From Roseivirga sp. BDSF3-8 (GTDB lineage: Bacteria > Bacteroidota > Bacteroidia > Cytophagales > Cyclobacteriaceae): 64,000 bases of DNA. Location of the stretch: positions 310,001 to 374,000 of the forward strand of contig NZ_JBGNFV010000001.1 of the NCBI RefSeq assembly GCF_041449215.1, given 5' to 3'. The number at the start of each line of letters is the position of its first letter. The stretch's first letter is position 1. Shown in pieces: positions 21,825 through 25,402 of the stretch. The position numbers and the translations under genes are program-made. The notes under the pieces were generated by a model. That model did not search any database, was not told the DNA's origin, and saw only the letters and a program-made list of their open reading frames with translations.

Positions 21825-21983
21825 ATGGCTGGCAGAAAACACCTCACACCACGGCAGGTACAGAAGGCACTAAGTGAAAAGGGTATTCACCGTGATCTGG
21901 ATACCTGCCGTAATCTTCTTAATTTAATGAAAGAGATAGCTGAAATAGCTGTCACAACCGTACTGAAAAATGACAACAGCTGA
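21825..21983 (+). CDS. 52-aa helical protein overlapping recombinase start
   Basis: A short frame from ATG 21825 to TGA 21981-21983. It starts MAGRKHLTPRQVQKALSEKG and ends with two amphipathic helices (RNLLNLMKEIAEIAV). It overlaps the serine recombinase start (ATG 21970) by 14 bases in another frame, which argues for coupled translation. Small LTPxxVQKxL-type proteins occur before recombinases in Bacteroidota elements and may act as recombination directionality or accessory factors. That role is inferred. Confidence 0.65.
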   Translation: MAGRKHLTPRQVQKALSEKGIHRDLDTCRNLLNLMKEIAEIAVTTVLKNDNS

Positions 21984-23553
21984 TTTATACATACGCGTAA
22001 GCACCGACGAACAGGCAGACAAAGGTTACAGCCAGCGTAACCAGGAAGAAATGCTTTTGAAGTACTGCGAGATAAATAACCTGATACCCGGGAAGGTGAT
22101 CTTTGAAGACCATTCGGCCAAGAGCTTCGAGCGCCCCGAATGGACACACTACCTAAACTACCTGAAGAGCCGCAAGCGGCTAAGCAGCACGCTGGTACTT
22201 TTCACCAAGTGGGACAGGTTCAGCCGCAATGCCGGTGATGCTTATATGATGATAAGTAAGCTCAGACGATTAGGAGTAGAACCGCAGGCTATAGAGCAGC
22301 CTTTAGACCTGAACATCCCGGAAAACAAAATGATGCTGGCTTTCTACCTGGCCGCTCCGGAAGTAGAAAACGACCGCAGGGCATTGAATGTTTTGCACGG
22401 CATGCGCAGAGCGAAGAAAGAGGGTAGATACTGCCATTCAGCACCACGAGGCTACAAGAACACCCGCGACGATAACGGTAATAAGGTGATTGTTCCCAGG
22501 GAGCCGCAGGCCAGCCAGATCAAGTGGATATTTGAACGCGTCGCAGAGGAAATCTATTCCAGTGAGCAGGTACTAAAGTTAGCCCGGAAGGAGATCGGCT
22601 TTAAGTGTAGTAAAAATGCCTTCTACCATGCTTTACGGAATCCGGTGTATTGTGGGAAGATATTCATTCACCAGTATAAGGATGAAGAGGCCCGAATAAT
22701 TAATGGCCAGCACGAAGGCCTTGTATCCGAAAAGCTATTTTATAAAGTGCAGGAGATACTGGAAGGCAGAAGACCTAAACGTAAGACAAAGGTAGTCACT
22801 CACGAAAACATACCGCTGGTGGGCTTTTTGAAGTGTCCTAAGTGCACACGGATGCTAACAGGTAGTGCAAGCAAAGGCCGCAATAAGTATTACTATTATT
22901 ACCACTGTACTTCACAATGTGGGGAGCGTCACAAAGCCGGAGAGGTAAACAAAGCTTTCGTAAATGAGCTGGCGAAGTATACCATCAACCCCGTATTAGG
23001 TGATATATTAAAAGGGGTCATAATAGAAACCTATAATAAAAAAATTAAAGCTTCTACTGACGGCAGGGCAGAACTTATAAAAGGGATAGAAGAACAAAAC
23101 GAGAAGCTAAGTAAGGCACGTATGCTGCTGCTTGATGATGCTATAGACCAGGAAGATTACAAGGCCATAAAACTAGCCTGTAATCAGAAGCTGATAGACC
23201 TGGAAAGCCGCCTTGCCTGCTACAAGACCAAGCAAAGGAACACACTAAAGCCTCAATTAGAAAAAGCCCTGGATATAGCTTTAAACATAGAAAAACTGTA
23301 CGAAGAGGCTGATTTGGAGAGGAAGCGGAAACTGGTTGGTTCGATCTACCCGGAAAATCTGACGTTTACCGAAAGCGGATATCGAACCACTCGCGTCAAT
23401 GAGGTATTTAGCCTTCTATATACTGTAAACCGCGAAATTAAGGACAAAAAGAAAGGGACAAGCCAGCAAAATAGTGACTTGTCCCAAGTGGTGATCCCGC
23501 TGGGTCTCGAACCCAGGACCCTCTCCTTAAAAGGGAGATGCTCTACCAACTGA
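21970..23553 (+). CDS. Large serine recombinase (integrase)
   Basis: 527 aa. The N-terminal resolvase domain has LYIRVSTDEQ with catalytic Ser11 and the arginine-bearing block FTKWDRFSRNAGD (about residues 77-90). The recombinase domain follows (about 170-260), then a zinc ribbon with CPKC and a second cysteine pair (about residues 297-320), and a coiled-coil region (about 370-440). It presumably integrates and excises the element. The last 21 or so codons read antisense through the tRNA-Lys gene, ending at a TGA inside it, so the C-terminus (VVIPLGLEPRT..) is encoded by target-site DNA. Before integration the protein must have had another end. It is the last gene before the tRNA, the usual place for an integrase. 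Confidence 0.9.
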   Translation: MTTADLYIRVSTDEQADKGYSQRNQEEMLLKYCEINNLIPGKVIFEDHSAKSFERPEWTHYLNYLKSRKRLSSTLVLFTKWDRFSRNAGDAYMMISKLRRLGVEPQAIEQPLDLNIPENKMMLAFYLAAPEVENDRRALNVLHGMRRAKKEGRYCHSAPRGYKNTRDDNGNKVIVPREPQASQIKWIFERVAEEIYSSEQVLKLARKEIGFKCSKNAFYHALRNPVYCGKIFIHQYKDEEARIINGQHEGLVSEKLFYKVQEILEGRRPKRKTKVVTHENIPLVGFLKCPKCTRMLTGSASKGRNKYYYYYHCTSQCGERHKAGEVNKAFVNELAKYTINPVLGDILKGVIIETYNKKIKASTDGRAELIKGIEEQNEKLSKARMLLLDDAIDQEDYKAIKLACNQKLIDLESRLACYKTKQRNTLKPQLEKALDIALNIEKLYEEADLERKRKLVGSIYPENLTFTESGYRTTRVNEVFSLLYTVNREIKDKKKGTSQQNSDLSQVVIPLGLEPRTLSLKGRCSTN

Positions 23554-23564
23554 GCTACGGAATC
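23489..23564 (-). tRNA. tRNA-Lys (UUU), CCA encoded
   Basis: On the minus strand GATTCCG pairs with CGGGATC as the acceptor stem (one G-U), followed by discriminator A and encoded CCA. The D-arm TAGCTCAGTTGGTAGAGC, the anticodon stem TCTCC/GGAGA with loop CTTTTAA (anticodon TTT), and the T-arm with GGTTCGAGACC are all present. Length is 76. Its 3' end borders the mobile element. Confidence 0.97.
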
Positions 23565-24416: not shown

Positions 24417-25089
24417 ATTTCTATTACATAGCAGGGAAAGTTGACAGCATAATTTTTTAAAACGCTGCTAAGGTAATGAAGAAAAAAATAAAGCACGACA
24501 CGGAATCTACCACTTTCAAAACAAACTACCCCCACCAAAGGTGCGTGACCATCTGGACAAGGATAAAAGCATAGCGATTTTACGTACAATTTAGCTTGAC
24601 AACTTACCTATAAATTGTATTTTTACAACAAGCCATTCACCCCTGCCCTCGAAAAATTCCCCCTGTTTTCCCCCAATTACCAACCCAATGCTGGACCGTT
24701 TCTGAACCGTCTTTAAACCGTATATTGAAGCCCCCTCCTTCGCCCATCGTCCGGGCTGGCCAGGCCCTGGGGCTACTACTTACCAATTGTACATTATGAG
24801 GTTTGTGTACATCTCCATCCTTGCTGCATAGCCGTCAGGTTAAGGTTTTAGATAACCCGAATTAGTTCACCAGCTGATCTCACTCTATTCTAATACCAGG
24901 AATTTTAATAAAGCTCAAACCTAAGGCCACAGTGGGGAGATTAAGCTAGGTTCTGTAAGAAATTTAGCTTACTACGGCAGTAGTAAAAGCCATGCGAAAG
25001 ATTACCATACTTGCTCATTCCTCACTATATCCCAAACTGGTATAGCCCTCAAACATGACCACCGGCCAAGACGGTGGTTTTAGTACGGT
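24417..25089. other. Long intergenic region, mostly unexplained
   Basis: About 670 bases without a supported gene. It contains three direct copies of ACCGT at 24695, 24706 and 24717, exactly 11 bases apart, and an ACCACCG/CGGTGGT hairpin at 25058-25078 followed by TTTT. Frames here are short and lack family features. A small RNA or undetected short peptide cannot be excluded. Confidence 0.4.
24695..24721. promoter_or_regulatory. Triple ACCGT direct repeat, helically phased
   Basis: ACCGT starts at 24695, 24706 and 24717 with an identical 11-base period, so all three copies lie on the same face of the helix. Direct repeats of this spacing are typical of response-regulator operators. The regulator is unknown; an orphan LytTR regulator is encoded elsewhere in the window. 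Confidence 0.4.
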
Positions 25090-25090
25090 T

Positions 25091-25117
25091 AATAAAAAAG
25101 CGCCTGTTGGCGCTTTT
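25091..25117 (-). terminator. Rho-independent terminator of the RiPP precursor gene
   Basis: On the minus strand AAAAGCGCC-AACA-GGCGCTTTT is followed by TTATT, a 9-bp perfect stem with a T tail. It starts 22 bases after the precursor stop codon, which supports that gene as a real transcription unit. Confidence 0.85.
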
Positions 25118-25138
25118 CTGATTTCATCTTTGATCAAT

Positions 25139-25330
25139 TTATCCTCTGCTACAGACATCTCCGCCATCACAGGTAGTATAATTAACTGTGTCACAAATCA
25201 TTTTGGTGTCACAATTATAATAGGAAGCGCATATTCTGTTTGCTGACTCACCACCCCTCACGGAGTGCTTATGGGAAGTAGTAAAGCTACGTACTGCTAG
25301 CTTTGATAGGGAAATTTTAGTCTTTCTCAT
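25139..25330 (-). CDS. Orphan lanthipeptide-like (pinensin-type) RiPP precursor
   Basis: A 63-aa peptide. The leader MRKTKISLSKLAVRSFTTS matches the K-x-SL-x-KL-x-V-x-SF-x-TS pattern of Bacteroidota class I lanthipeptide/pinensin precursors. VRGG at about residues 24-27 is the probable GG cleavage site. The 36-residue core has five cysteines (in RIC, YNC, MIC, TTC and DVC) and several Ser/Thr, as needed for (methyl)lanthionine rings. An ATG six bases upstream (25336) is an alternative start. It is followed by a strong terminator. No LanB dehydratase, LanC cyclase or exporter lies in the window, so maturation would need enzymes encoded elsewhere. An unmodified cysteine-rich peptide is the alternative. 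Confidence 0.7.
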   Translation of the reverse strand: MRKTKISLSKLAVRSFTTSHKHSVRGGESANRICASYYNCDTKMICDTVNYTTCDGGDVCSRG

Positions 25331-25402
25331 CGTCATGGTATGATTAATTAATTTAAGAAGATACCCACCAAAAGGCATAATCACAAGTTAGAAACGCCTG
25401 CT

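Follow-up and report, generated by a model that had tools for sequence, protein, structure and literature searches.

A dispersed family of probable pinensin-type lanthipeptide precursors and a putative single class I machinery in Roseivirga sp. BDSF3-8

The window analysed here (a 64,000-nucleotide stretch of the Roseivirga sp. BDSF3-8 genome, C1:310001-374000) contains a short gene for a 63-aa peptide that is almost certainly a real precursor of a family with pinensin-type leaders. The peptide is probably a class I lanthipeptide precursor that is modified in trans by an enzyme locus at C1:2,590,426-2,601,036, and it belongs to a paralogous family of at least 165 frames at 97 places in the 6.1-Mb genome (6,098,086 bases, 4 contigs). 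On balance, we favour the view that this is the largest known lanthipeptide precursor repertoire, mostly dispersed and served by one class I machine with a leader-recognition domain on its LanC, and that it is prochlorosin-like in organization, arose independently and recurs outside Bacteroidota. We know of no larger lanthipeptide precursor repertoire.

The precursor gene and its surroundings

The features of the region, in window coordinates, are as follows.
25139..25330, minus strand: precursor peptide gene, 63 aa, with a TAA stop at 25139-25141
25250..25330, minus strand: 27-aa leader MRKTKISLSKLAVRSFTTSHKHSVRGG with double-Gly site, from the leader alignment and family codon-position entropy
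25142..25249, minus strand: 36-aa core with 5 Cys and seven Ser/Thr, by direct reading
25096..25117, minus strand: intrinsic-terminator-like hairpin of the precursor, by direct reading and our own scan
24978..25097, plus strand: remnant of one IS200 (Y1 transposase) element end, abutting the terminator, by sequence identity
24550..24833, no strand assigned: dispersed repeat, about 260-280 bp long and separate from the peptide gene, by sequence identity
25403..25795, minus strand: upstream same-strand neighbour, a 130-aa protein ending 72 bases before the precursor, no Pfam match

The 63-aa frame picked out by the first-pass annotation was confirmed on the minus strand (C1:335139-335330). The frame remains open upstream; a start at the ATG two codons before (25336) would lengthen the product to 65 aa, and the exact start is not certain. 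The leader motif, the VRGG and the 36-residue core with five Cys and several Ser/Thr that had been described were all present, the leader containing KISLSKLAVRSFTTS and ending in VRGG. All five core Cys are pairable, each with its own Ser/Thr 2-13 residues to the N-terminal side. The core falls into a subfamily of seven in which the pattern C-x-T-x-x-Y-T-x-C-x-G-x-x-x-C is loosely kept. Searches of 19 other leader-positive genomes gave no match to this subfamily below E 0.1, so there is no orthologue to show long-term selection on the window core.

The sole curated NCBIfam model matched by the peptide was NF038180 (leader_pinensin), at 15.4 bits against a cut-off of 24; the score in the genome scan was 15.7 bits, so that membership by cut-off was not reached there either. 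In two leader alignments the peptide does carry the LxLxxLxVxSFxT block followed by GG, as expected of an NF038180-type leader. The earlier assignment to a pinensin-type leader was right in kind, although the peptide by itself does not reach the family cut-off. The family HMM gave 36.3 bits, with the peptide itself in the seed. A Pfam search of the peptide returned no match, and neither did a search with PF14867, for which the controls gave none either.

The perfect 9-bp hairpin reported 22 bases past the stop was recovered both by reading and by our own scan with a shorter arm. It begins at the 22nd base past the stop, with arms at 25096-25104 and 25109-25117 and a 4-base loop at 25105-25108, and is followed on the minus strand by T-rich sequence. 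A generic terminator scanner found nothing at this hairpin (0 against 0.7 expected in shuffles), by our reading because the A-T pairs of the stem consume most of the T-run.

The gap between the flanking genes, given earlier as 985 bases, measures 986 bases (24417-25402). It is typical of the family: over 152 members, the large frames on either side are separated by a median of 1025 bases. About 40% of the 986 bases consists of the IS200 remnant and the other repeat, neither of which had been noticed. Judged by its 87% identity to positions 467-585 of a 585-bp IS200 with 24 intact copies in the genome, the segment at 24978-25097 is the end of a decayed IS200. The repeat at 24550-24833 is 72-75% identical to sequences at C1:2254218, C1:3166167 and C1:5528165 (fetched stretches only) and by reading contains ACCGT-like units about 11 bases apart; it may be regulatory or a decayed mobile element, and its nature is undetermined. 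The 130-aa neighbour was not assigned to the lanthipeptide system. Elsewhere in the window, a large serine recombinase (21970-23564) overlaps with its 3' end a tRNA-Lys gene (23489-23564, minus strand); it is likely the integrase of an element at the tRNA site, 1.6 kb from the precursor.

Carriage of precursors by IS200 was considered and rejected. Seven of the 24 intact copies have a catalogued precursor no more than 65 bases away, five of them lying directly behind the precursor's terminator-like hairpin, one inside a precursor frame (C1:5775365) and one touching a precursor start. The remaining 17 have no catalogued precursor within 9.8 kb, the distance of the next nearest. After allowing for intergenic space the enrichment is weak (p about 0.02, with assumed shares).

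A precursor family dispersed over the genome

What had been described as a lone orphan is one of at least 165 siblings, and the check for sibling precursors that had been proposed was answered at 97 places, 60 of which hold a single member. A tblastn search of the genome with the 63-aa peptide gave 63 matches at E<=10, itself included, with the best paralogue at E=1.7e-9. A first leader HMM found 168 frames at 8 bits or more against 1 in reversed proteins, and an HMM rebuilt from the members, which it contains as seeds, found 165 frames at 16 bits or more against 0 in the reversed control. The reversed-protein control and the 165 relatives rule out a chance frame. The count of 165 is a minimum, as our HMM was run only on stretches fetched around matches and enzyme loci (85 stretches, 835,483 bases including the window; stop-to-stop frames).

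In genome-wide searches, a 26-row leader alignment gave at least 85 matches in one scan (85 of 185 candidates scored) and at least 142 in another (150 of 227 candidates scored), and NF038180 gave at least 150 at E<=10 (150 of 219 candidates scored). Among the candidates scored with NF038180, the window peptide falls short of the 24-bit cut-off, but 72 others reach it alone and nine more do so together with in-frame neighbours. At E<=10 this model also matched 8 of 14 control genomes, in none of which was the cut-off passed.

A pinensin-type leader, LxLxxLxVxSFxT ... GG, is common to the members; their cores diverge and are for the most part rich in Cys. M1, S15, F16, T18 and G27 were invariant in the 26-row alignment. 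Mean pairwise identity was 47% for leaders and 22% for cores, the latter against 20% for core versus shuffled core (1500 pairs; 500 for the shuffle), and Cys made up 12% of core residues against about 0.05% of leader residues. By a simple pattern that set some cut sites wrongly, the leader ended in GG in 132 and in AG in 25 of the 165 members; in five the cut site was missing or the core was shorter than 12 residues.

Codon-position entropy was calculated over 160 aligned leaders. At the conserved Leu, Val, Ser, Phe and Thr, position 2 hardly varied (0-0.4 bits). Position 1 was just as constrained at Ser, Phe and Thr (0-0.4 bits) and less so at Leu and Val (1.0-1.8 bits). Position 3 came close to random for Leu, Val and Thr (1.75-2.0 bits) and had 0.9 bits at Phe and 1.15 at Ser, both of them two-codon-like. 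As far as can be judged from codon usage, the family leaders show protein-level constraint.

A terminator-like hairpin with a T-run follows 57 of the 165 members, compared with 16 of 165 sampled control genes and 0.4 expected from shuffles. Bacteroidota-type promoters have the motif TTG, 17-23 bases, TAnnTTTG; it occurred upstream of 5/165 members and 5/279 controls, giving no support for a common promoter motif. A few 8-mers such as AACTAAAC were commoner upstream of the family (9/165 versus 1/279 controls). Family upstream regions were A-rich at -14 to -12, -6 and -3 and G-poor relative to 279 control upstreams, and these positions are described as positive for translation in Flavobacterium johnsoniae in the available portion of that report (PMC6847099). 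Overlap with a frame of at least 150 aa was seen for 5 of 158 tested members.

Four family cores lack Cys altogether and are unable to form lanthionine, which means that not every member fits one product type. At C1:3352874, C1:3353890, C1:3354069 and C1:3365478 (loci L045 and L048), cores with one or no Cys are rich in Thr and hydrophobic residues. These members could not form several lanthionines and may represent another product type.

A single split LanB set and inferred modification in trans

The genome encodes one PF04738 protein (LanB-N; two stretches, one frame) and one PF14028 protein (LanB-C). Both lie in the locus at C1:2,590,426-2,601,036, 2.26 Mb from the window gene, which comprises a C39-peptidase ABC transporter (736 aa), an HlyD protein (462 aa), LanB-N (1003 aa, C1:2594150-2597158), LanB-C (353 aa) and LanC (672 aa). 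PF04738, PF14028 and PF05147 all exceed their cut-offs within this one locus, as expected of class I enzymes with a split LanB. The suggested search for a LanB/LanC pair or split dehydratase elsewhere in the genome has therefore found a complete split class I set. Class I precursors usually, if not universally, lie in or beside the enzyme cluster, and linkage of this kind is absent for the window precursor.

The LanC of this locus and those of four other genomes (G034, G069, G018 and G035) keep the WCHG and CHG motifs, which are conserved metal-site motifs. Four further LanC-like genes are present in the genome, and the assignment of LanC consequently rests on gene order. LanC-like proteins without LanB occur at C1:5107000-5124000 (L070) and C1:1230000-1249000 (L071), each adjoining a 293-298-aa protein of undetermined kind (MKIVQSFWSKPFF.. 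and MSYKIIQSFWTKPFF.., respectively). At a further locus, C1:4162720-4167069 (L067/L068), a multi-core precursor of about 312 aa contains four Cys-rich repeats in tandem, each about 47 aa long; after it come genes for an APH-type kinase, a HopA1 protein and a LanC. The locus looks class V-like, with a score of 51.9 bits for the LxmK model against a cut-off of 315.

The proposed steps follow the known chemistry of the LanB-N, LanB-C, LanC and C39 families. The leader would be recognized by the single split LanB/LanC machine, probably with the help of a recognition domain at the LanC C-terminus. LanB-N would glutamylate core Ser/Thr and LanB-C would eliminate the glutamate, after which LanC would join every Cys to a dehydroamino acid lying N-terminal to it, so that the core of the 63-aa peptide could gain as many as five thioether rings. 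The C39-peptidase ABC transporter would then cleave after GG and export the ring-bearing core with HlyD. From at least 165 precursors with divergent cores, one tolerant machine may in this way produce a large library of secreted cyclic peptides. Computation establishes the gene family, the conservation of its leader, the single LanB set, the co-occurrence across genomes, the Cys-Ser/Thr polarity and the conserved metal-site motifs of LanC. That a single machine acts on all of the at least 165 precursors is inferred, as are expression, modification in trans, the ring pattern and export; there are no transcript, peptide or mass data, which limits the claim of modification in trans. The biological role is likewise inferred: antagonism or defence against other microbes is the most likely one, at roughly an even chance.

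Polarity of the cores and alternative readings

The arrangement of Cys and Ser/Thr in the cores was assessed by pairing each Cys with the nearest unused Ser/Thr 2-13 residues upstream, excluding members without Cys or cut site (leaving 158 of 165 cores from this genome and 98 of 102 from other genomes with a recognizable cut). In the 158 cores, 581 of 608 Cys were pairable upstream and 371 in the downstream direction. The controls gave 390 for shuffled cores (sd 10, maximum 420) and 439 when Cys were kept and the Ser/Thr pattern was borrowed (sd 11, maximum 472). The result held for 138 non-redundant cores (504/526 upstream, against 338 shuffled, 384 positional and 317 downstream) and for the 98 cores from other genomes (432/448 upstream, against 301 shuffled, sd 9, 336 positional and 308 downstream). 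According to the accessible part of a preprint (PMC13060382), the usual partner of Cys in ring formation by LanC is an N-terminal Dha or Dhb, and this holds for pinensins too. Read from sequence, the core polarity is that of lanthionine rings, not disulfides; it is only indirect evidence of dehydration or lanthionine in the product. Together with the distant split LanB/LanC locus, it supports the first-pass inference of a functional precursor whose enzymes are encoded elsewhere.

The Cys-rich core might also suit a secreted, unmodified disulfide peptide for which the RiPP-type leader has been kept only as a C39 export signal, and C39 cleavage and export alone would account for the GG site. Disulfide peptides, however, predict no upstream Cys-Ser/Thr polarity. 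Upstream pairing lay far above the shuffled and positional controls and downstream pairing was at the shuffled level in two sets of cores, which disfavours a disulfide peptide and, with it, the recruited unmodified Cys-rich peptide that had been offered as an alternative. The leaders also track the split LanB-C across genomes, and we regard the disulfide reading as improbable. It is equally hard to favour the view that the frame is a relic, dead or silent, in a gene family that is expanding. A few relatives do look broken, namely the one with IS200 inside it and the five without a cut site or with a core under 12 residues, and repeat remnants lie in the window gap. The window frame itself is nevertheless intact, with leader, GG site, full core, 5/5 pairable Cys and a terminator-like hairpin, and the leader codons of the family show constraint at the protein level.

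The APH kinase/HopA1/LanC locus at C1:4,163,792-4,167,069 could in principle modify the family by a class V-like route, since its LanC has WCHG and CHG motifs and a pinensin-type precursor is encoded at a distance of about 3 kb. Against this, HopA1 was found in only one of nine leader-positive genomes (this one) and in 1/89 others (p=0.18), so that the association expected of such a route is absent, and the multi-core precursor just upstream of the kinase/HopA1/LanC genes has a different leader. On the HopA1 census and the locus' own precursor, this locus was rejected as the enzyme source, and we consider the class V-like route very improbable. Class I modification by the split LanB/LanC locus remains the preferred reading.

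A predicted recognition domain on LanC

The LanC of the enzyme locus continues for about 245 residues beyond the cyclase domain, and all 22 aligned LanC proteins carry this extension, given their lengths of 621-701 aa (for two of the 22, L194 and L218, the alignment to the reference reaches only into the extension). A model of the whole protein (mean pLDDT 91.7) matches LanC structures over about residues 1-428, and Foldseek and VIA-align searches with it matched only the LanC domain. When predicted alone from 20 sequences, the extension had a mean pLDDT of 88.4 and consisted of strands followed by three helices, as in an RRE except for an additional short strand on either side.

The modelled extension resembled TbiB1, a leader-binding protein (Z 9.0, rmsd 2.4, 87 residues of an 88-residue chain), the recognition domain of NisB (Z 8.7, rmsd 3.3, 106 residues), a TglHI chain over most of its length (Z 13.2, rmsd 5.4, 198 residues), which we infer to be TglI, and 3dee, a putative regulatory protein (Z 11.7). 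Foldseek E-values were weak (best 2.2e-3), Z values of 6-7 were also reached by unrelated proteins, NO66 among them, and middling Z values may reflect no more than a common arrangement. Of the sequence searches of the extension against the PDB, one run gave no match and another nine weak ones, including one PqqD-family protein at E=1. From the model we infer an RRE-like, leader-binding domain, with the reservation that the Foldseek E-values are weak and that there are no binding data. Such a domain, if real, would help one machine to serve many unlinked precursors.

Co-occurrence across genomes

Ninety-eight genomes (relatives and this one) were compared, nine of which were leader-positive (match at E<=1e-4). 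A split LanB-C (PF14028 over cut-off in a separate frame of less than 400 aa) was present in 8/9 leader-positive genomes against 2/89 others (p=2.5e-9), and any PF14028 over cut-off in 8/9 against 10/89 (p=2.3e-6). The exception, G036, has leader matches without a PF14028 match in an assembly of 1300 contigs. The five-gene locus occurs in the same order in G034, G069, G035 and, with more distant sequence, G052. G035 and G018 have a precursor within the locus, and in G034 one lies beside it at a distance of about 3 kb. In G018 the LanC is apart from the other locus genes and the contig showed no ABC gene; in G053 the locus is cut by the contig, and the G021 stretch showed only LanB-C.

In the reverse test, 17 of 18 other genomes picked among 79 LanB-C loci had a leader match at E<=0.01. 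Within the LanB-C loci themselves, leader matches at E<=0.01 were found in 20/79 (named genomes), and none was found near LanB-C in the other 59, many of which are distant actinobacterial loci or short contigs. The nearest LanB-C sequences were from Fulvivirga, and leader matches numbered 29 in Fulvivirga imtechensis (L171), 21 in F. kasyanovii (L170) and 13 in F. marina (L172), with only 1-4 in several other genomes. Of 395 Bacteroidota genomes drawn, four matched NF038180 at E<=5e-4: this genome (20 candidates scored) and three with 1, 4 and 1 matches. A LanB scan of genome contigs confirmed no relative.

Outside Bacteroidota, the Acidobacteriota MAG MO_135.B14 (L189, G499) has 64 leader matches over many contigs and a LanB-N/LanB-C/LanC locus, and 14 precursors, mostly with Cys-containing cores, were read in 13 fetched stretches. 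As far as these predicted genes indicate, the same kind of many-precursor system recurs there.

Comparison with known systems

The closest known relatives are the pinensins of Chitinophaga pinensis (class I, NF038180), which share the leader family, the split LanB and class I machinery in Bacteroidota. The pinensin LanB is given as split in the part of PMC7268733 available, and pinensins are termed a two-component lanthipeptide in the accessible text of PMC13060382. Unlike this two-component arrangement, the present system comprises at least 165 precursors, spread over 97 places and for the most part distant from the enzymes. In Chitinophaga silvatica (L218), a leader scoring 44.5 bits accompanies LanB-N, LanB-C, HlyD, ABC and LanC genes. 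Bacteroidetes class I LanAs were described with LxLxKx5L...GG leaders and C39 proteases in the cluster (Walker et al. 2020, PMC7268733, in the portion available), the same leader style, GG end and C39 protease as found here. As far as that portion describes it, the survey was confined to seven genes on either side of a LanC-domain protein and would for that reason miss dispersed members. More generally, mining restricted to the vicinity of LanC would overlook most of these precursor genes. The accessible part of the F. kasyanovii paper (PMC12565237) names the lanthipeptide class among the clusters and does not mention dispersed precursors. We found no report of a dispersed class I many-precursor system in the open-licence PMC literature, which is no proof of absence, nor, in a narrow search of the same literature, of a LanC-RRE fusion. 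The structural likeness of the modelled extension is to RiPP recognition elements (TbiB1, NisB, TglHI), from which it differs in being fused to LanC and in lacking a confident sequence match.

In organization the system is closest to the prochlorosins and synechococsins of Prochlorococcus and Synechococcus (ProcM, SyncM), which, in the portions of the reports available, likewise have scattered precursors with one conserved leader, GG, variable cores and one enzyme (PMC10783134; PMC12328550). The genome has the outward features of this mode, one enzyme set beside many unlinked precursors whose leader is conserved and whose cores diverge; action of the one machine on all of them is inferred. Membership of the prochlorosin family itself (ProcA, LanM and Nif11 leader) is not, the leader matching only the pinensin model in NCBIfam and the enzymes being LanB/LanC; no genome-wide LanM search was made. 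The cyanobacterial systems are class II, with LanM and Nif11-type leaders, whereas the system described here has a class I split LanB and LanC, another leader and another phylum. The accessible part of PMC10783134 gives 83 and 79 precursors for the richest cyanobacterial strains and describes the biological role of such systems as unknown.

A counterpart in class I that has roughly double the number of precursors, and smaller versions in genera such as Fulvivirga, would amount to an independent evolutionary replicate of the cyanobacterial systems. It would supply a natural set of well over a hundred cores for one split LanB/LanC, and the cyclase-borne recognition domain is a testable idea of how one machine finds its precursors. 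The leader type, the split LanB and C39 in Bacteroidetes are known, as are scattered class II precursors; their combination in class I, of which we found no report in the open-licence literature, appears to be new.
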